Source: a virus. Taken from it: a stretch of DNA of 31,091 nucleotides. A program made the position numbers and the translations under genes. The notes beneath the pieces are model-generated. The model saw only the letters and a program-made list of their open reading frames with translations. It had not been told where the DNA came from and ran no database searches. This document shows, piece after piece, positions 1,753 through 16,690 of the stretch (position 1 is its first letter; each line of letters begins with the position of its first letter). The stretch lies in the IMG/VR virus record IMGVR_UViG_3300020457_000050, positions 1 through 31,091 of that record, one strand, 5' to 3'.

Positions 1753-2873
1753 TAGGTATCACTCCTCGATGTTGCTCCTGGGGCGTTTCTGCGTCTACCA
1801 CCCCTTCTCCATGCTCTACGATTTGCCCAATAATTAGGATTTGACCTAGATCTGTCATTATTGGGATTTTCCCTTGCTGGGGCAGGAGTTCCAGGAGGGG
1901 TAACTGTTGGATATGGGAATGAGTTAGTTCCAATGTTGAAATAACCACTATTCCTTGATGTGACACTATCAAAGGATTCCTTCGTAAGGAATTGAGTTTC
2001 TTGGAAACTGAGAGTCATGTTATATGACGCAGGACCAAAATCGGTCAAATTATTGCCTGGAGTCCAAGATTGTAGTGATGAGTAATTCCCATCAGGTGCT
2101 AAATCTACATCTACACCTTTTAGTACCATTTTGGTTGGGAATTGCATTAATGCACTTAACATACCCCCACCTGAACCATATCCTGGGTTGGATATTGTTT
2201 CATCCTTACCATTATCGGTGTATCGTACCACAGCGATTCTAAAGTACTCAGGTAATGTCAACCAGTTATTACCATCCTTTCCAGGAAGCATTGCTTTCCT
2301 GAACGTGTCGATTATCTGGTATATGGTCTGGACATCAGTAGTACTTCTTGGTTGCATCTTGAATGAGAACGAGTGATTCCTGAAACTCGTGCCACTAAAG
2401 ATTGCTTCTTCATAAGGGTTGAATATTTTACCTTGAGTAAGTGCGGATAGGTCATTTCCACTTAAACTACTCATTCCTTGTCCAGTTACACCAACTGTTG
2501 CACTAATTGCTTTTGCTCCAGCACCAAATGCCAATGATGGTTTTGCTGCTTTTGCGAATTGTTTCAATTCACCTTTAAATGATGTACCTTCAAAATCACC
2601 ACCAGATTGCACTATCTTCTGTGCTGCACCAACTGCTGCTGCACCTGCTGGACCTAATGTAACATTCTTATACTCTGCTGTATATTTCTCACTTAACTTG
2701 TTGGGAAGATACAAATATACGGTATCAAGCATTTCATCGTGCTCGTGACCATAAATATCTATTTTAAGGTAATCAACCACTCTCGTCGGGAAAGCTGCTT
2801 CATCTTTAATAGCTTCTCTGCTATTGCGATTATTGGCTCCTAACGGTTTGGCTGTTGGGAATACTAACGTCAT
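1752..2873 (-). CDS. gp48: gp48-like baseplate tail-tube cap protein
   Basis: A 373-residue protein, close to T4 gp48 (364). The middle carries the tube-cap signature NPYEEAIFSGTSFRNHSFSF, then KMQPRST and a helix of the IIDTFRKAMLP type (residues ~150-200). This is the 'PrSxxEa..i..ii..fk..m.P' pattern of tube-fold baseplate proteins. The N-terminal region before it is Ala/Gly-rich (residues ~75-140). The C-terminal ~50 residues are Arg/Asn/Pro-rich and probably disordered. gp48 caps the baseplate hub and, with gp54, initiates tube polymerisation. The start ATG (2873-2871) shares a CATG with the divergent gp4 start. A minus-strand TATAAATA at 2937-2944, inside gp4, is the likely promoter. 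Confidence 0.87.
   Translation of the reverse strand: MTLVFPTAKPLGANNRNSREAIKDEAAFPTRVVDYLKIDIYGHEHDEMLDTVYLYLPNKLSEKYTAEYKNVTLGPAGAAAVGAAQKIVQSGGDFEGTSFKGELKQFAKAAKPSLAFGAGAKAISATVGVTGQGMSSLSGNDLSALTQGKIFNPYEEAIFSGTSFRNHSFSFKMQPRSTTDVQTIYQIIDTFRKAMLPGKDGNNWLTLPEYFRIAVVRYTDNGKDETISNPGYGSGGGMLSALMQFPTKMVLKGVDVDLAPDGNYSSLQSWTPGNNLTDFGPASYNMTLSFQETQFLTKESFDSVTSRNSGYFNIGTNSFPYPTVTPPGTPAPARENPNNDRSRSNPNYWANRRAWRRGGRRRNAPGATSRSDT
2750..2757 (+). promoter_or_regulatory. late promoter CATAAATA driving the gp4 operon
   Basis: An NATAAATA late-promoter octamer on the + strand, 115 bases upstream of the gp4 ATG, embedded in the N-terminal coding sequence of the divergent gp48 gene. No other candidate was seen closer to gp4. 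Confidence 0.55.
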
Positions 2874-3306
2874 GGCTTACAAAGGAATCTACAGACCTCA
2901 AAATAGACATAAGTATAAAGGTGATCCCACTAGGATTATTTATAGGAGTTTGTGGGAAAAAAAATTCATGCACTGGTGTGACAAGAATGTAAACGTATTG
3001 GAGTGGGGAAGTGAAGAAATTATCATACCTTACCGTAGTCCTGTGGACAACCGTCCTCATCGTTATTATCCCGATTTCTATGTTAAAGCGAGGACAAAAG
3101 ACGGAAGACTCGCAAAGAGCATTATCGAAATTAAACCTTATAAACAGACTCTCCCACCGAAACGTAAAAAGCAGAAGTCTAAGACCTTTTTAACTGAGGT
3201 AAAGACATATACCGTGAATCAGGCAAAATGGAGAGCAGCGAGGGCATATTGTGCAGATCGTAGAATGACATTCTTGGTACTGACAGAGCATCACCTAGGA
3301 GTATGA
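2872..3306 (+). CDS. gp4: gp4-like head completion nuclease
   Basis: A 144-residue protein (T4 gp4 is 150). It begins MAYKGIYRPQNRHKY and continues IIYRSLWEKKFMHWCD and WGSEEIIIPY, all very close to the T4 head-completion protein. A PD-(D/E)xK nuclease core is visible: P67-D68 in RYYPDFY and E86-I-K88 in IIEIKPY, as in TnsA-type endonucleases, to which this family is related. It acts in late head maturation before tail joining. A longer in-frame start exists at 2824, but MAYKGIY matches the family start. The chosen ATG shares its AT with the divergent gp48 start. It ends in an ATGA overlap with the next gene. Confidence 0.88.
   Translation: MAYKGIYRPQNRHKYKGDPTRIIYRSLWEKKFMHWCDKNVNVLEWGSEEIIIPYRSPVDNRPHRYYPDFYVKARTKDGRLAKSIIEIKPYKQTLPPKRKKQKSKTFLTEVKTYTVNQAKWRAARAYCADRRMTFLVLTEHHLGV
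2937..2944 (-). promoter_or_regulatory. late promoter TATAAATA driving gp48-gp53
   Basis: The + strand reads TATTTATA, giving the exact T4-type late promoter TATAAATA on the minus strand, 64 bases upstream of the gp48 start. It lies inside the coding sequence of the divergent gp4 gene. The assignment rests on motif plus position. Confidence 0.65.
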
Positions 3307-4534: not shown

Positions 4535-5239
4535 ATGCCTTTACCCAAGTTAGCCATACCTGAGTATGAAATGGAATTGCCTATTACAGGCAAGAAGTTA
4601 ACATACCGTCCCTTTCTAGTGAAAGAGGAGAAATTGCTTTATCTCGCTATGGAGTCGAACAACGACAAAGAGATGATTAAAGCAGTGAAGACAATTATTA
4701 AAAACTGCACCAGTTTGAAAGGAAAAGTTGAAGATCTCGCAACTTTCGAGATTGAATATATCTTCCTTAAGATCAGATCTAAGGCAGTTGGTGAGGTCAG
4801 TGAATTTAAGATTACTGCACCAGATGATGATACAACAAAGGTCGATGTGAGTATACCATTAGATAAGGTAGGAGTAGTTGTACCAGATGGACATACTAAC
4901 AAAATTGAGTTAGATGGTAATGTAGGTATTAAAATGAAGTATCCATCATTGGATGTATTCATTCAACAGAATCTTACTGATAATCCCGATATTGATGATA
5001 TTTTTAAACTTGCTGCTGGTTGTATAGACCAAGTATGGGATAAAGAAGAGGTATATGATACCTTTACTAAGGCAGAAGCACTTGACTTCCTAGAAGGACT
5101 CAACTCTGAGCAATTCCAGAAGGTACAAGATTTCTTCCAAACAATGCCTAAGTTAGCGTATACTATTCCAGTTTATAATCCTAAAACTAAGGTCACCAGT
5201 GAGCTACAGTTAGAAGGTCTAGCATCTTTTTTCGAGTAG
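4535..5239 (+). CDS. gp26: gp26-like baseplate hub/assembly protein; probable tail assembly chaperone G-type half
   Basis: A 234-residue protein. The N-terminus, with LTYRPFLVKEEKLLYLAMES then KTIIKNCTSL, is the T4 gp26 baseplate-protein family core; T4 gp26 is 208 residues. The C-terminus has an aromatic/acidic helix rich in F and E (LDFLEGLNSEQFQKV) and ends LASFFE. The last codons read TCT TTT TTC GAG TAG: the heptamer T_TTT_TTC (5227-5233) is in the zero frame and is a canonical -1 slippery site. Slippage would continue into the next ORF without meeting a stop. Placement directly before the tape-measure genes is the classical position of tail assembly chaperones. The hub role is known from T4; the chaperone role is inferred. 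Confidence 0.82.
   Translation: MPLPKLAIPEYEMELPITGKKLTYRPFLVKEEKLLYLAMESNNDKEMIKAVKTIIKNCTSLKGKVEDLATFEIEYIFLKIRSKAVGEVSEFKITAPDDDTTKVDVSIPLDKVGVVVPDGHTNKIELDGNVGIKMKYPSLDVFIQQNLTDNPDIDDIFKLAAGCIDQVWDKEEVYDTFTKAEALDFLEGLNSEQFQKVQDFFQTMPKLAYTIPVYNPKTKVTSELQLEGLASFFE
5227..5233 (+). promoter_or_regulatory. predicted -1 programmed ribosomal frameshift site T_TTT_TTC
   Basis: The heptamer TTTTTTC is aligned to the gp26 zero frame as T TTT TTC, two sense codons before the gp26 TAG. After a -1 slip the frame reads CGA GTA GCC CTA and then the ATG at 5245. The -1 frame is open from 5203 (TGA at 5200-5202) to 5430, so the shift can only happen in this short window. An SD-like AGAAGG lies at 5212-5217, nine bases upstream, as in bacterial -1 sites where such a motif stimulates shifting. 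The product would be a 298-residue fusion. Confidence 0.65.
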
Positions 5240-5244
5240 CCCTA

Positions 5245-5430
5245 ATGCATGATAGTCTTGAGAATTACTACAAGACTAACTTCGCATTAATGCAACACCA
5301 CAAGTACTCTCTAACAGAGTTGGAAAATATGATGCCTTGGGAACGTGATGTTTATGTGAATCTTCTTATTGCTCATATACAAGAGGAAGAGAGAAGGCAA
5401 AAAATGGAAGAAAACAAGATGTCCCTTTAA
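5245..5430 (+). CDS. small ORF, probable frameshift extension of gp26 (GT-type chaperone half)
   Basis: A 61-residue ORF with MHDSLENYYKTNFALMQ at the start and ENMMPWERDVYVNLLIAHI then EEERRQ at the end. This matches the short acidic/aromatic second half seen in tail assembly chaperone pairs (helix, 'mp-wE-d-y--ll--hi-eEe'). The first ATG at 5245 has no Shine-Dalgarno sequence, but the frame is open back to 5203 and is exactly -1 to gp26, so translation by frameshifting is more likely than independent initiation. It occupies the position of T4 gene 51, but T4 gp51 is much longer (249 residues), so I do not assign that name. It ends directly at the tape-measure ATG (TAAATG). Confidence 0.75.
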   Translation: MHDSLENYYKTNFALMQHHKYSLTELENMMPWERDVYVNLLIAHIQEEERRQKMEENKMSL

Positions 5431-7989
5431 ATGGCAATTAAATCGTTTGTTACAATTAAACCATTTAAGATTTCTAGTAAGTTAGATGCAGACTTCAATG
5501 AGATCCGTAAGGGAATCAATCGTACAGGTGTTGTAACAGAGGGCATTGCTAATAATTTCTTTGAAACCAATACTATCATTGAGTTTCAACGTGACTGGCT
5601 TCGCACTGATATAGCAGAGAAGACAGAGAAATTAGATGATAAGGATAAAAAGAAGAAGACTCTATGGCAGAAGAGTATTAATGCATTTCGGAGAATGTTC
5701 CGAAAGAAGAAGAGAGATAAGGTAGAGAAGACATTAGAGGAAGCAGAGAAGGAAGCAGATAAACCTGTAAAGAAACGCTTTAATGAGATTAAAGGACCAG
5801 TACAGGGATTCCTGAAAAGGATCTTTGGGTTTTTGGATGCCATTATAAGCGGTTTTATATTGTACGGTATCTTCGACTGGATGGATAAGATGCCACAGTC
5901 GGCAGAGAAGATATTCAAATTAATATTTGCTATTGGTAAGTTTGCGTTTGCGATACTGGGATTTGGTATCAATGGCATAATGAACGGACTCACCAATATA
6001 TTTGGTGCATTTGATGAGAATCCTGTTAAGAGAGGACTAAGAGGACTATTAGGAGTCTTCCAGTTATTAGGTGGTATTGCTGCATTTAAGACAGCACAAT
6101 ACTTGATAATGCCATGGAAGGCAATACAAGATTTTAATGGTGTTAGAGAGACATTTGCTAGGAATACTCAGACACAAGAAGAGATAAAGCAGAGTGCTGC
6201 TGCAAGACGGACGGGATATAGAGACAAAAAGACGGGAGTAATATACAGTAAGGAGGAGTACGATCAGATCCAGAAGTCTGCTAAGAGAGCAGATGCTAAG
6301 AGAGCTAAGGGTGCAGGTAAAGGGTTTAAGTCTGATCTATATCAGAAAAACGCACAAGATAGATTCCAAGGACAATTTAAAGGGGCAAACAAAGGACCAC
6401 TCAGTAAGTTGAAGCAACGTGGTCGAATAATGGGTAAAAAAGGACTCAAATTCGGCAAGAAAGGTTTTGGTAAGATAGGTAAGTTTGCAAAGGCAAGACC
6501 AGGTGCAGCAGCAGGAGGTCTATCTGTATTGGGTGGAGCTGCACGTATAGCATCAGGTATAGCATCAGGTGAGAAGAAGTCTGCTGCTATAGGTGCAGGT
6601 GTTGGACAGGCAGCAGGTGGTTTGATAGGTGGTGCAGTAGGTACTGCGTTACTAGGTCCATTTCTAGGTCCATTTGCACCTATAGTTGGTAATGCTATTG
6701 GTGGTTTCTTAGGTGAATGGGTAGGTAAGACTCTAGGACCAATCATAGAACCTATATTTGGACCTCTTGGTAGAGCATTCAAGATGTATGGTCAGGTGAT
6801 CTGGGGTGTAATGAAGGAGGTCTTTGTACCATTTAAAGAGACCTTTGATGCATTGATGGGATTCCTTAGTGGACTAGGTGATTTATTAATTAAAGGTGCT
6901 AAAATGGTAGGGGAATTTGTCTCTTTCGTTTTTGGTGCTGCTGTAGATGCAATTAAATGGATCATAAGTCGGGTTATCAATGGTGTTAAAAACCTTATGG
7001 CATTTGCCAAGAATCCAATTGGATTTGCATACAAGGTTATAAGGACCAGAGGTAAAGTCCTACAGGTGGGACAAGAAAAATCAGAGGGTGGTGCTGTACC
7101 AGTTTATGGTACAATGAAAGACATTTATCCAGTAACAACACCACAGGATTATAGTATGGGCGGTTTAGTAGCAGGTATAGCAGGAGCAATGCTGGCAGGT
7201 AGTTCAATGTTTGCACCAGCAATGGCAGAGGGAGGACATATAATAACTTCAAAGATGGGTCAAAGGGGATTCGCTTTATCTCCTGGTATGCACATGGGAG
7301 TTGATATTGCCACAGAGGTAGGTGAAGCAATACATGCAATGTCAGATGGATTCGTTGATGCAGTAGGTAAGGATGCTGGATATGGATTCTGGATTAGTTG
7401 GGTAGATAGTAAAGGATATGGTCATTTCTTTGCTCATCTTGATAAGATGCCAACACTTAAGAAGGGAGATAAGACATCTAAAGGTACAATATTAGGATAT
7501 ACAGGTAATACTGGTAGATCATCTGGACCCCATCTTCACTGGGAGATGGCATTGGATCCAAAAGACACTGGTAGACCTAAGACAAATGTATTATCAAGGG
7601 TAAATCCACTTGATTTCTATGATAAGGAAGCACCATTTGGATCAGGTGGTGGTAATCAACTTCAACCAGCTAAGGAATTATCTTTTGATCCACCACATGT
7701 AGTAAAACCTATTGGAAAGGGTGCACAGAAAGCACTTGATGGTCTTGTTGGTCTTTGGAATAAGAGTTATGGGAAGGTGATCCCTCAACTCAAGATCGAT
7801 CCTGAGCATGCTAATCTGAAGAATATTGCTCAGAAAATAAAAGATAAAGCATTTAGGGATAAGGATGATGAGATGATGCCATTAGTTATGAAGGGTGAGA
7901 CTACAGTTGTTACTGAACAGGTAATAAATAACAATGGTGGTACTAACGTTATTCCTGTGTACTCACCTACGTCATCAATGTTAAGTTAG
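5431..7989 (+). CDS. tape-measure-like tail protein with M23 endopeptidase domain
   Basis: An 852-residue protein. Order: N-terminal region, very Lys/Glu-rich coil (~60-125), hydrophobic helical block (~130-235), basic linker (~250-350), Gly/Ala-rich hydrophobic block (~360-455), more hydrophobic helices (~455-530), then an M23/LytM domain (~600-720) and a C-terminal tail. The zinc-site residues are all present: H621 and D625 in HMGVD, H669 in FFAHLD, and H701/H703 in GPHLHWE. Tape measures set tail length and are ejected into the host; M23 domains cut peptidoglycan cross-links, so this protein likely opens the cell wall. Its first ~450 residues align in layout with the next gene. T4 gp29 (590 residues) is the functional analogue; direct homology is not evident. 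Confidence 0.8.
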   Translation: MAIKSFVTIKPFKISSKLDADFNEIRKGINRTGVVTEGIANNFFETNTIIEFQRDWLRTDIAEKTEKLDDKDKKKKTLWQKSINAFRRMFRKKKRDKVEKTLEEAEKEADKPVKKRFNEIKGPVQGFLKRIFGFLDAIISGFILYGIFDWMDKMPQSAEKIFKLIFAIGKFAFAILGFGINGIMNGLTNIFGAFDENPVKRGLRGLLGVFQLLGGIAAFKTAQYLIMPWKAIQDFNGVRETFARNTQTQEEIKQSAAARRTGYRDKKTGVIYSKEEYDQIQKSAKRADAKRAKGAGKGFKSDLYQKNAQDRFQGQFKGANKGPLSKLKQRGRIMGKKGLKFGKKGFGKIGKFAKARPGAAAGGLSVLGGAARIASGIASGEKKSAAIGAGVGQAAGGLIGGAVGTALLGPFLGPFAPIVGNAIGGFLGEWVGKTLGPIIEPIFGPLGRAFKMYGQVIWGVMKEVFVPFKETFDALMGFLSGLGDLLIKGAKMVGEFVSFVFGAAVDAIKWIISRVINGVKNLMAFAKNPIGFAYKVIRTRGKVLQVGQEKSEGGAVPVYGTMKDIYPVTTPQDYSMGGLVAGIAGAMLAGSSMFAPAMAEGGHIITSKMGQRGFALSPGMHMGVDIATEVGEAIHAMSDGFVDAVGKDAGYGFWISWVDSKGYGHFFAHLDKMPTLKKGDKTSKGTILGYTGNTGRSSGPHLHWEMALDPKDTGRPKTNVLSRVNPLDFYDKEAPFGSGGGNQLQPAKELSFDPPHVVKPIGKGAQKALDGLVGLWNKSYGKVIPQLKIDPEHANLKNIAQKIKDKAFRDKDDEMMPLVMKGETTVVTEQVINNNGGTNVIPVYSPTSSMLS
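7923..7930 (+). promoter_or_regulatory. candidate late promoter AATAAATA before second tape-measure gene
   Basis: An NATAAATA octamer inside the last codons of the first tape-measure gene, 61 bases upstream of the next ATG (7991). Distance and motif fit a late promoter. It may be a chance match, because it encodes part of an Asn-rich segment. Confidence 0.35.
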
Positions 7990-12748: not shown

Positions 12749-15481
12749 ATGAGTAGATCTGGTACCGATTTTTTAGGAAAAGATGGATATACCTGGTGGG
12801 TAGGCGAGGTCGAGCATGTCGATGACCCTTCACAGCTAGGTCGTGTCAAGGTGCGTATCCTAGGTTGGTATACAGGTAGTAAGAGTAAAGAAGCATATAC
12901 TAAAGATGTCCCAACGGAGATTCTTCCTTGGGCTACTGTACTGTTACCTTGTGACCAACCACAGACTAAAGGTGCAGGTACATCAACAGAATTACAACCA
13001 GGTGCATGGGTATTAGGTTTCTTCCTCGATGGTGAGGGAGCACAGATGCCATGCGTCTTAGGTGCGTTCAGAGGTTTCCAACAAGAGAAGGCAGATAAGA
13101 AGACTACTATTGCAGACGCTAAGAACGCTGAGAAGAATAAGACTAATACCAACTCACAAAAGGATCTAGGTGGTCAGGACGCAATGAATGGTAATCCATT
13201 CCCTAAAGTCCAGAGTATTTCACCAGGCGATGCAAATGGTGCTCTTGAAGAAGCAAGAGGTGGTATCAGCACTGCGGTACAAGTATTACCAGGTAATGCT
13301 GTAACTAACCCATTTAAACCACCAGTTAATGCTAATGGTATTGGTGATGGTGTTGCAGGTCCAGCAGGTAAAGGATTTGAAACTGACCTAACAAGGATGT
13401 TAACTGAGTTAGGTGAGATGGCATCTACCATGGCATCAGGTCCAGGTGGATTTGTTTCTGTTGCCACAGGTAATAAGATGGCAGGAGATAAGGTAAGGGA
13501 GCATCTAGGTAAGATTATTAACTTCCTATCCAGTGGTATCTCTGGTATCCTTGCACCTTTAAAAGAATTACTAGCAAAACTAATTGCTGAGATTGTAGCG
13601 ATACTTGTTAAGATTGTATCTCAGTTTGTTCCTATTGTCGTCATCAACATGTTGATGTCATTCTTATCACAGATCTTTGATCTATTCTGTGCTAAGAAAC
13701 CAATGTGGTTGGGACTGGTGCAGAGTGCGTTGTCGGATACGGTGAACTTTGCGAACCAGATGGCAGCGTTAGCTGTCAATAAGATAGCTACGTCTGCAAT
13801 TGGAACAGCAATCGATTCTGCTGTTAAGGGATTAAGCAACCGTATCCTTTCTGGTATCACTTCATCAATGAATCGTGTAAGAGATGTTGCGGGTGATGTC
13901 ATAAGTGCTGTTAGTACTGCTAAAGGTATGGCAGGGGCAGCAAGGGCGTTGGGTGATACAGTCCAGATGATTATGGAGTTTGACTTCACATCATTGGATT
14001 GGGGATCTCTTTTACAGATCCTATTAGCAATTCTAGGTGCTCTATTTAAAAAGAGTTGTAACAGGAAGATAAAGAGGCCGAAGTCTAAGGCGTGGTTCCC
14101 ACTGATAGGATCCACGGAGTGCGATAATATAGAGGATGCTATTAAGGGCACAGGTTTTGACAATGTTGACCAGGTATATGGTGGTGGAGATTCTATATTT
14201 GATAAGATTGATAATGTAACTCAGAAGATAAAGGAGACTGGTAGTTACATCGATAAGATGTTCCAGAACATTAACCCATATCTAATGGAGACTAAGACAT
14301 CTCTTAATGGGGCTAAGGTTATTAATGATGCTACGCCAGGTAAAGAGAAACAGATAACGTCAGGTCCAGGTGGCGTGACGAGTTTCCAAGACTCTCATGG
14401 TAATGAGCACGTTAACGTACCAAATAACCAGACTAAGATCATTGCTAAGGATAAGTGTGAGACTATTAAAGGTAACTACTGTCTAACAGTTGAGGGTGAT
14501 TTCTATCTTAAGGTCATGGGTAACTACCATGAAGAGATAACTGGTGCTAAGAATGAGCATAACTCACAAGGACCACAGTCTGAATCTGGTGGTGAGTCTG
14601 AGACTCCAGATACCAGTGGTACAGGTGGTGCTACTGCTGAGACAGATACTAACGTAACTTCAGGTCAGATATCTAGTGAGACACAGAAACAAGCAACTGC
14701 AAACAATCTAGGGTCAGGTGGTAATTTCCTAAACTATACGTCTGCTGTAACAAGAGAAAGGGATAGAGTCCTTAAAGAGCAGAATGTAGGTGGTTTCTAT
14801 CCAGTAGATCAGATACCATATGCACCTGATGCTGATAGATTTGGTAGGACACCAACAGGTCCACAATTAACTGGTAAACTTAATGATACTACTGAGCAGA
14901 AGTCTGCTGCTAGAAAGGAAGGAGACCATGATATAGCATATACTGGTGAGATTAAGATACAGGGTGCTAAGGTTAGTATCGCTGCTATCGAATCGTTAAT
15001 GATTAACTCACAAAACGTTAAGATAGAAGGTAATACTATTGAAAATATTGCTGATGGTGAGATAGTTAACCAAGCAAACTTTATTACATCATTCCTAAAT
15101 GCAGGTAGATTTGAGTTTATTGCACTATTCAATCCATTTGCTGCATTAACTGGTCAGTTTACTATGGTTAAGGGTGCTATTGTGGATATCACATGTGACC
15201 TACCATTCCCTGCTGCTGCACCACCATCACAGGTTAGGATCTCGATTGGTACCCAAGTCCCATCCAGTATGGCAGACATCCTAGCAGGTTCACAAAACGC
15301 ATTACATGCCACTTTCGTAGCTGCACCTACTGGGGTCATCGCTGAGTTTGTGCCTTCAGGATCCCTGATAAACCAGGTGGTCACTGGGATGGCATCCTAC
15401 TCATGTGCAACTGGATACCTTGCTGCTGGTTGTGGTTTCGGTCCTTGTCAAATTTATGGCTTGCCAGTTCTCCTGAACTAG
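12749..15481 (+). CDS. gp5: gp5-like baseplate hub/spike protein lacking a visible lysozyme domain
   Basis: A 910-residue protein (T4 gp5 is 575). Residues ~14-110 are the gp5 OB-fold: WWVGEVEHVDDPSQLGRVKV, VPTEILPWATVLLP and LQPGAWVLGFFLDG, all paralleling T4 gp5. Where T4 has a lysozyme domain there is a long Gly/Ala then hydrophobic helical region (~215-450, e.g. LKELLAKLIAEIVAILVKIV), and I find no lysozyme-like Glu/Asp/Thr arrangement. Residues 573-604 are four octads (IKGNYCLT, VEGDFYLK, VMGNYHEE, ITGAKNEH) of the gp5C VxG type that build the triple beta-helix spike. A further Ser/Gly/Thr linker and a C-terminal domain with Cys/Gly-rich end follow. It acts as the membrane-piercing spike on the hub. 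Confidence 0.85.
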   Translation: MSRSGTDFLGKDGYTWWVGEVEHVDDPSQLGRVKVRILGWYTGSKSKEAYTKDVPTEILPWATVLLPCDQPQTKGAGTSTELQPGAWVLGFFLDGEGAQMPCVLGAFRGFQQEKADKKTTIADAKNAEKNKTNTNSQKDLGGQDAMNGNPFPKVQSISPGDANGALEEARGGISTAVQVLPGNAVTNPFKPPVNANGIGDGVAGPAGKGFETDLTRMLTELGEMASTMASGPGGFVSVATGNKMAGDKVREHLGKIINFLSSGISGILAPLKELLAKLIAEIVAILVKIVSQFVPIVVINMLMSFLSQIFDLFCAKKPMWLGLVQSALSDTVNFANQMAALAVNKIATSAIGTAIDSAVKGLSNRILSGITSSMNRVRDVAGDVISAVSTAKGMAGAARALGDTVQMIMEFDFTSLDWGSLLQILLAILGALFKKSCNRKIKRPKSKAWFPLIGSTECDNIEDAIKGTGFDNVDQVYGGGDSIFDKIDNVTQKIKETGSYIDKMFQNINPYLMETKTSLNGAKVINDATPGKEKQITSGPGGVTSFQDSHGNEHVNVPNNQTKIIAKDKCETIKGNYCLTVEGDFYLKVMGNYHEEITGAKNEHNSQGPQSESGGESETPDTSGTGGATAETDTNVTSGQISSETQKQATANNLGSGGNFLNYTSAVTRERDRVLKEQNVGGFYPVDQIPYAPDADRFGRTPTGPQLTGKLNDTTEQKSAARKEGDHDIAYTGEIKIQGAKVSIAAIESLMINSQNVKIEGNTIENIADGEIVNQANFITSFLNAGRFEFIALFNPFAALTGQFTMVKGAIVDITCDLPFPAAAPPSQVRISIGTQVPSSMADILAGSQNALHATFVAAPTGVIAEFVPSGSLINQVVTGMASYSCATGYLAAGCGFGPCQIYGLPVLLN

Positions 15482-15711: not shown

Positions 15712-15971
15712 ATATTATAGATTTATCACAAACAGAATTTGAAGAGAGTGTACCATTCTCACTTAAATTAGTAGAGAAAGGACATACCTTGAGAGTAACT
15801 ACGCATAATGGAATTGTGTGTATTGTCTCACCTGTTGCGTCAGTTACTAGAGAAGATGCTAATATAGATATACCAAGTCCAGAAGAATTCAAACCAGATC
15901 CTGTTGGCACACGACAGTTTGTGGAGGAAGCACTGGGTGAAATGACAAACGCACAAGGTTTTCCAATATGA
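15708..15971 (+). CDS. small protein preceding talC, unknown
   Basis: An 87-residue protein: MNIIDLSQTEFEESVPFSLK, then a beta-rich HTLRVTTHNGIVCIVSPVAS and an acidic Pro-rich tail. No catalytic motif, signal or membrane segment is seen. The start is ATGA-coupled to the previous gene and the end ATGA-coupled to talC, so all three are probably translated from one message. The name and role are unknown. Confidence 0.6.
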   Translation: MNIIDLSQTEFEESVPFSLKLVEKGHTLRVTTHNGIVCIVSPVASVTREDANIDIPSPEEFKPDPVGTRQFVEEALGEMTNAQGFPI

Positions 15972-16690
15972 GAATATTTTTAGACACTGCCGAGACCTCT
16001 GTTATTAGAGAGTACTATGCGACAGGTCTAGTTGATGGGGTCACTACAAACCCTACACTTATTATGAAATCAGGTAGAGATCCAGAGGATGTCTATTCTG
16101 AGTTAGCAGACATTGGTCTACAAGATATCTCTATGGAGGTTGTAGGTACTGGTGACGAAATGTTAAGCGAGGGCCGTCGTTTAGCTCAAAAGTTTGGAGA
16201 TGTTGCTACAATTAAAGTACCATGCACACGAGGAGGACTCGCTGCATGTAAATTATTATCCGAGGAGGGAATTAAAGTTAATGTTACGCTTATATTCAAT
16301 GCTGCTCAGGCTATCTTATCTGCAAAGGCAGGTGCTACGTACGTCTCTCCTTTTATTGGGAGGTTGGACGACAATAGCGTTGCTGGGTTGGAGGTTGTCC
16401 GATCAATAAGCGAAGTGTATAGAGTGCAGAATGTAAAGACACAGATACTTGCTGCATCTATTCGTGACGCATATAAAGTAACTAGAGCATTCTGGAATGG
16501 TGCACATGTTGTTACTATGCCACCTAAGATCTTAGGTAACATGTATAAGCATGTCCTTACTGATGCTGGATTAGATAAGTTTGATGAAGATTGGGCAGAA
16601 GTACAAGCACAAATTACACAGAGACAAGCGTATGAACCACCTGCTATTGCACAAGGTGTAAGACATGGTGGGGATTTAGATGCTATCTGA
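15968..16690 (+). CDS. talC: TalC-type transaldolase
   Basis: A 240-residue protein of the short MipB/TalC transaldolase family. Visible: MRIFLDTAE at the N-terminus, DGVTTNPTLI (~23-32), the Schiff-base lysine K83 in ATIKVPCT, NVTLIFNAAQA, ATYVSPFIGRLDD and the phosphate-end region ILAASIRD then GAHVVTMPP. It moves a dihydroxyacetone unit between sugar phosphates in the pentose phosphate pathway, as in many cyanophages, supplying ribose for nucleotides. Length is slightly above the 215-225 usual for the family, the extra being a C-terminal tail with a QAQITQRQAYEPP segment. It starts inside the stop of the preceding ORF. Confidence 0.95.
   Translation: MRIFLDTAETSVIREYYATGLVDGVTTNPTLIMKSGRDPEDVYSELADIGLQDISMEVVGTGDEMLSEGRRLAQKFGDVATIKVPCTRGGLAACKLLSEEGIKVNVTLIFNAAQAILSAKAGATYVSPFIGRLDDNSVAGLEVVRSISEVYRVQNVKTQILAASIRDAYKVTRAFWNGAHVVTMPPKILGNMYKHVLTDAGLDKFDEDWAEVQAQITQRQAYEPPAIAQGVRHGGDLDAI

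Follow-up and report, generated by a model that had tools for sequence, protein, structure and literature searches.

A gp26/gp51 locus of an uncultured marine T4-like phage as a probable tail assembly chaperone pair with a programmed -1 frameshift

The DNA analysed here, called the window, was the whole 31,091-nucleotide (nt) stretch of IMG/VR virus record IMGVR_UViG_3300020457_000050, and the locus under study was the junction between its homologue of T4 gp26 and a small open reading frame (ORF) of the gp51 family, considered as a site of programmed -1 frameshifting. The genes were arranged in the order tail tube protein, gp26, gp51, and tape-measure-like ORF (Table 1). The window gp26 scored 228 bits against PF12322 (T4 gp26), for which the family cut-off is 24.5, and its 3' end read TCT TTT TTC GAG TAG. 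The small ORF of 61 amino acids (aa; 5245-5430) sat in the -1 frame relative to gp26. Its 5245-5427 part matched phrog_634, "baseplate hub assembly catalyst" (E 3.2e-29, profile positions 61-120 of 121), and, with E 4.6e-5, the phrog_150 profile at its C-terminal end, which suggests that the two parts are joined in a single protein in some members. Conceptual translation through the frameshift gives a product of 298 aa, which reads ...LEGLASFFRVALMHDSLENY. The product of the next ORF matched phrog_167, "tail length tape measure protein" (E 2.2e-20), and its best match was phrog_90, labelled endolysin. The original prediction for this locus had described a T_TTT_TTC heptamer in the zero frame at the end of gp26, a Shine-Dalgarno (SD)-like AGAAGG nine bases 5' of it, a 61-codon ORF in a -1 frame open from 5203, an ATG at 5245 without a ribosome-binding site, products of 234 and 298 residues, and a tape-measure-like gene right after. 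All of these features were found, with the same lengths on recomputation and no obvious SD before the ATG. The role of "T" extension that it assigned to the small ORF also fits, but the ORF, which it treated as anonymous, belongs to the gp51 family.

Table 1. Coordinates of features at the gp26/gp51 locus in the window (SD, Shine-Dalgarno; TAC, tail assembly chaperone).
Feature	Position	Strand	Evidence
gp26 homologue, 234 aa, predicted short tail assembly chaperone (TAC-N, "G")	4535..5239	+	PF12322 E 1.4e-67; phrog_150 E 1.3e-73
-1 reading frame, open from 34 nt 5' of the gp26 stop through to the gp51 stop	5203..5430	+	
Internal SD-like AGAAGG, nine bases 5' of the heptamer	5212..5217	+	sequence; anti-SD duplex energy profile
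Putative slippery heptamer T_TTT_TTC (Phe-Phe), zero-frame codons TTT TTC	5227..5233	+	heptamer conservation; third-base constraint
Predicted frameshift extension RVALMHD...MSL, gp51 family (TAC-C, "T"), giving the 298-aa fusion	5234..5430	+	phrog_634, phrog_150 matches
Possible downstream hairpin, weak evidence	5236..5296	+	single-sequence fold -18.5 kcal/mol
gp26 TAG stop, for non-shifting ribosomes	5237..5239	+	sequence
ATG opening the annotatable gp51 ORF, five bases 3' of the gp26 stop, without obvious SD	5245..5247	+	sequence
852-aa tape-measure-like protein with M23 peptidase domain, directly 3' of the gp51 stop	5431..7989	+	PF01551 E 6.6e-21; phrog_167

The junction was compared across 244 sequences, namely the window and loci L001-L244 (without L024, the window again) from viral contigs and named phages. 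L017, L018, L118, L147, and L165 were left out because the contig ended before the gp26 stop, and 239 loci were counted. The sample was not random, part of it being drawn from the best 80 matches listed in scans, and the raw counts include 21 sets with identical gp26 and downstream sequence, 214 distinct loci remaining when these are collapsed. An in-frame T_TTT_TTN heptamer was present within the last 20 gp26 codons at 205 of the 239 loci (183 of the 214 distinct ones), ending in TTC at 167 loci, TTT at 32, TTA at five, and TTG at one. The -1 frame was open from the heptamer at all 205 loci, and a stop in this frame between the heptamer and the small ORF, which the original prediction had named as evidence against slippage, was seen at none of them. 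The gp51 hidden Markov model (HMM) matched in the -1 frame at 202 of the 205, the exceptions being L029, L113, and L232. Seventeen named phages carried the heptamer: P-TIM40, S-RSM4, P-HM2, MA01, ACG-2014d, pelagiphage Mosig, Caulobacter Cr30, Stenotrophomonas YB07, Rhizobium Y68, phiM12, pf16, Xanthomonas X1, Desulfovibrio 7757, Aeromonas Asswx_1, PX29, Vibrio VH7D, and Pseudoalteromonas XG4. In Mosig, the heptamer kept its position though the gp26 stop lay ten codons past the first Phe codon. As a chance level, in-frame T_TTT_TTN occurred at 2 of 9,288 codon positions in 27 ORFs of the window, the gp26 site being one of the two. The remaining stop-to-stop ORFs of the compared loci, where 150 aa or longer, had it at 128 of 237,306 positions (0.54 per 1000 codons). 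The second window heptamer, T_TTT_TTA at codon 8 of the hub/tail-lysozyme gene (12749-15481), is probably due to chance.

The 34 loci without the heptamer consisted of 14 of T4 or RB43 type, which had a separate long gp51, 19 of Ackermannviridae type (17 Ackermannviridae loci and the Vibrio phages K393 and 207E48.1), and L168, whose gp26 was broken and which was counted among them. All loci outside these three sets shared the heptamer. Its absence from related phages, the other pattern that the original prediction had named as evidence against slippage, was seen in the 17 Ackermannviridae loci, which keep gp51 in the -1 frame and for which the frameshift reading is only a possibility. In L168, gp26 ended early near base 2121 and homologous sequence resumed in another frame, an apparent indel; at L135, the best-scoring census ORF was the long gp51 and not gp26.

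Third-base constraint was analysed in 63 sequences (70% dereplication) over 233 gp26 columns, as third-base bias given the amino acid and the codon usage; the resulting z-values assume that related sequences are independent and are to be taken as a ranking. The base before Phe-Phe was T in 63 of the 63 representatives, through seven codons for Ser, Asp, Asn, Ala, Gly, and Arg, and the first Phe codon was TTT in every one of them. The codon before Phe-Phe ranked first among the 233 columns (z 8.3) and the first Phe second (z 7.1), with a median of 1.05, while the second Phe ranked fourth and the SD-like element's Glu codon, whose third base was G, seventh. The energy of the duplex with the anti-SD sequence peaked at a mean of -6.8 kcal/mol 11-12 nt 5' of the heptamer; this figure, like the start-codon figures for representatives, comes from 61 of the 63 sequences.

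The initiation signals of gp51 were sparse. Up to the conserved core, 38 of the 202 gp51 frames contained no ATG, GTG, or TTG, and 61 of the 202 contained no ATG. An SD of -4.4 kcal/mol or better was found for 1 of 30 gp51 ATGs, counted in representatives where an ATG was present, as against 32 of 59 for gp26. Because a start codon is often absent, gp51 has been truncated or left unannotated in phage records: it was annotated from internal ATGs as fragments of 30-48 aa in P-TIM40, S-RSM4, P-HM2, and Mosig (L026, L027, L032, and L133), was unannotated in the records of Asswx_1, VH7D, and ACG-2014d (L033, L127, and L140), and was a truncated stand-alone gene or missing in at least 7 of 23 annotated phage records. 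No joined coding sequence at gp26/gp51 was found in the annotated stretches compared (26 records, three of them without annotation).

The T4-type loci offered a view of the same two parts in one protein. T4 gp51 (249 aa) matched PF12322 (residues 1-201, E 3.9e-52) and phrog_150 (residues 3-248), both from libraries that may have been built with gp51 included. Because of this, and because a gp26-only HMM made here matched T4 gp51 weakly (E 8.8e-4), separate profiles were compared by hhalign. The N-terminal part of T4-type gp51 aligned with gp26 of the frameshift group (98.7%, E 1.5e-16), the C-terminal part with the -1 extension (97.9%, E 3.3e-13), and the whole of T4-type gp51 with the conceptual gp26-gp51 fusion from end to end (99.7%, E 4.1e-27, 240 columns). 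Judged by these alignments, T4 gp51 is a gp26-like domain followed by the same C-terminal extension as that in the -1 frame, so that T4 encodes the short and the long form as two genes. In a tree of 52 rows, the frameshift-type and Ackermannviridae-type gp26 (32 rows) were split from T4-type gp26 and gp51 with a support of 100/95; T4-type gp51 formed one group (100/99), as did T4-type gp26 (99/96) except for RB43 gp26, which lay on a long branch beside gp51. With a root that the data do not fix, this tree is consistent with one duplication on the T4 side. In RB43 (L134:2001-3294), a long fused gp51 and gp26 stood in tandem on one strand, followed by sequence that resembled gene 25 by eye, and this arrangement may be a relic of that duplication. 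The two genes lay on opposite strands in T4, Aeromonas 31, and Aes012. In the T4 record (L025:786-1427), gp26 was annotated only from the internal start at 1188, and the PF12322 match spanned a longer ORF from about 804.

The AlphaFold model of window gp26 had a predicted local distance difference test (pLDDT) score of 87.8. Residues 1-85 of the model aligned with the HK97 tail assembly chaperone (TAC) 2OB9 at Z 7.6 (root-mean-square deviation 3.7, 83 aligned residues), a moderate match, as a Z below 8 can reflect a common arrangement. The other matches at Z of at least 5.0 were 3FGX (7.7), YqbN 3KLU (7.2), and 5IR0 (5.0), the next row being at 2.9; a TAC title stood on 2OB9 only, and the other three are presumably related to it. 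A model of T4-like gp51 from L117 (pLDDT 83.2) showed a run of elements like that of the gp26 model, followed by four C-terminal helices.

Among the features by which a TAC pair is recognized, the window showed two adjacent ORFs directly 5' of the tape-measure gene and a gp51 frame at -1 that is open from the heptamer and would need no start of its own. The G/GT reading of the original prediction fits the gene order and the make-up of T4 gp51 and, more tentatively, the moderate fold match of gp26 residues 1-85. Taken together, gp26 and gp51 of the window phage very probably constitute one TAC locus with a programmed -1 frameshift. This interpretation is based on the sequence, its conservation and constraint, the many relatives without independent gp51 initiation signals, and the homology to T4 gp51, from which we infer slippage itself, its rate, and the chaperone function. 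Most ribosomes would stop at the gp26 TAG and give the short form of 234 aa (TAC-N, comparable to lambda gpG). Some ribosomes would pause at T_TTT_TTC while the upstream SD-like element pairs with 16S rRNA; the two tRNA-Phe would then shift back by one base and pair anew, with TTT TTT in place of TTT TTC, and translation would proceed in the -1 frame to give the 298-aa long form (TAC-NC, like gpGT), in which gp26 is fused to the gp51 domain. As in lambda, the short and long forms would cover the tape measure protein and bring in subunits of the tail tube.

Several observations weigh against this interpretation. The window gp51 has its own ATG five bases past the gp26 stop, the gp26-only HMM recognized T4 gp51 weakly, as given above, and the third-ranked column in the constraint analysis (6.7) was a leucine near the gp26 N-terminus that is unrelated to the slip site. 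Foldseek alone gave no significant match of the gp26 model in the PDB (2OB9 at E 1.1), the TAC ranking high only after VIA re-alignment, and no TAC was among the 50 PDB matches listed for the T4-like gp51 model. A conserved RNA structure downstream of the heptamer was also sought, and 18 aligned relatives gave zero consensus pairs. The region 3' of the heptamer had a mean folding z of -1.2 in 61 representatives, as compared with -0.22 and -0.12 for two controls, which means that single sequences somewhat beat their shuffles; a conserved downstream hairpin was nevertheless rejected and is not claimed, since the consensus pairs were absent from the 18-sequence alignment. In addition, the 17 Ackermannviridae loci (L034, L138, and L217-L231) hold gp51 in the -1 frame without T_TTT_TTN.

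The position of the ATG makes reinitiation possible at the window locus. Under a termination-reinitiation mechanism, gp51 would be a separate small protein made from the ATG past the gp26 stop, and the heptamer would be an accident of a conserved Phe-Phe. An ATG at +5, +8, or +14 in many relatives, besides that in the window, agrees with such a mechanism, as does the TAATG overlap in Vibrio phages K393 and 207E48.1. Against it, 38 of 202 frames offer none of the three start codons, a good SD accompanies hardly any gp51 ATG (1 of 30, as against 32 of 59 for gp26), and the -1 relation holds at 202 of the 202 loci with both the heptamer and a gp51 match. Moreover, Phe-Phe needs neither a preceding codon that ends in T nor TTT, yet both were invariant in the 63 representatives. 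We regard reinitiation as very unlikely to account for the locus.

Slippage could also be placed in the polymerase instead of the ribosome, with transcription of the T run yielding mRNAs in the other frame. The heptamer does contain six T, and TTTTTTT occurs at 32 loci, but the commonest form is six T followed by C (167 of 205), and TTTTTTA and TTTTTTG also occur; these forms are better explained by two adjacent tRNAs slipping on X_XXY_YYZ than by a slipping polymerase, and the upstream anti-SD peak points to a ribosomal stimulator. Transcriptional slippage thus appears less probable still. That a sequencing or assembly indel split one gene has a precedent in L168, where such a break exists, but the same junction recurs in 183 distinct loci, among them 17 named phages that are independent isolates of many groups, which leaves this explanation practically negligible.

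Programmed frameshifting at T_TTT_TTN being preferred for the window and the heptamer-bearing relatives, the Ackermannviridae-type loci require separate consideration. The 17 Kuttervirus/Taipeivirus loci fell into six sequence variants and included three pairs of identical copies, and all 17 shared an invariant 29-nt block, ATTTTCATTTAATTTTTGAAATTGATTTA, which spans the gp26 stop. In L034, the only Ackermannviridae locus checked for this, the first start codon lay about 30 nt past the gp26 stop. The invariance of the block suggests an unusual recoding site. Vibrio phages K393 and 207E48.1, which were grouped with the Ackermannviridae loci in the tree, had the TAATG overlap instead; their -1 frame looked gp51-like by eye and gave no gp51 HMM match. 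As a tentative scenario, to which we assign rather less than even chances, the G/GT frameshift may be ancestral to the whole gp26/gp51 family and may have given way a single time, on the T4 side, to a duplication with fusion in frame, whereas Kuttervirus and Taipeivirus, with the 29-nt block, no T_TTT_TTN, and no start codon near, would use a different and perhaps undescribed recoding site for the same -1 gp51 frame.

Two other genes of the window were noted. The head closure protein (2824-3306, phrog_218) also matched a TnsA-like endonuclease N-terminal domain (PF08722, E 5.4e-21), and a transaldolase gene (15968-16690, phrog_440, E 7.5e-90), a metabolic gene, lay amid tail and baseplate genes.

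Passages of earlier papers bear on the two genes. Sullivan et al. 2010 (PMC3037559) state that cyanophage gp51 has about 20% of the usual length, with the first ~200 residues absent, and that gp51 is missing in Aeh1. The present comparison accounts for the shortened cyanophage gp51, the absent residues being gp26. T4 gp51 is described as absent from the final particle in a section of PMC3004832 that also cites studies placing gp26 in the hub. A statement in Atkins et al. 2016 (PMC5009743) holds G-T frameshifting to be widely conserved "except T4".

The window locus is likened to lambda G/GT by its arrangement and not by the sequence of gpG. The lambda pair is located just before the tape measure gene. 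In both systems, a short chaperone and a low-level -1 extension would jointly serve the tape measure protein, as described for lambda in the part of PMC5009743 that deals with it. The window differs from lambda in its heptamer, T_TTT_TTC with an SD-like element. In the -1 frameshift of E. coli dnaX, an SD-like element lies about 10 nt 5' of the slippery heptamer A_AAA_AAG, together with a well-defined downstream hairpin. The window locus shares with dnaX the SD-like element 5' of the heptamer but has T_TTT_TTC as the heptamer, and a consensus hairpin was not found in its 18 relatives. The TAC genes of Vandenendeviridae and Andersonviridae, in the account given in PMC12846349, are similar in having a -1 frameshift, a poly-T motif that ends TAC-N, and a downstream ORF routinely annotated separately; they are different in their motif, GTTTTT, and belong to other phage families.

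The closest system is the gp26/gp51 frameshift of T4-like phages itself, which is already known, and the present result is a correct rediscovery; since a published identification exists, its value lies in confirmation and breadth, not in discovery. The abstract of the 2022 study by Vladimirov and colleagues reportedly names genes 26 and 51 and describes frameshifting as conserved in several T4-like groups. That study, on the tail assembly chaperones of T4-like phages (Vladimirov, Gautam and Davidson, Virology 2022, 566:9-15), is represented here through papers that cite it: a passage of PMC12846349 credits it with frameshift signals of the poly-T type in T4-like TAC-N genes, whereas the original prediction had known of no report in this group, and one of PMC10885494 credits it with T4-like phages that have a short gene and a long fusion gene. 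The window is one more member of this system, uncultured and marine, and the ranking of codon constraint, the profile of anti-SD pairing, and the counts of start codons were computed here. With this member included, two genes of T4-like phages that carry "baseplate hub" labels become one chaperone locus with two predicted products.
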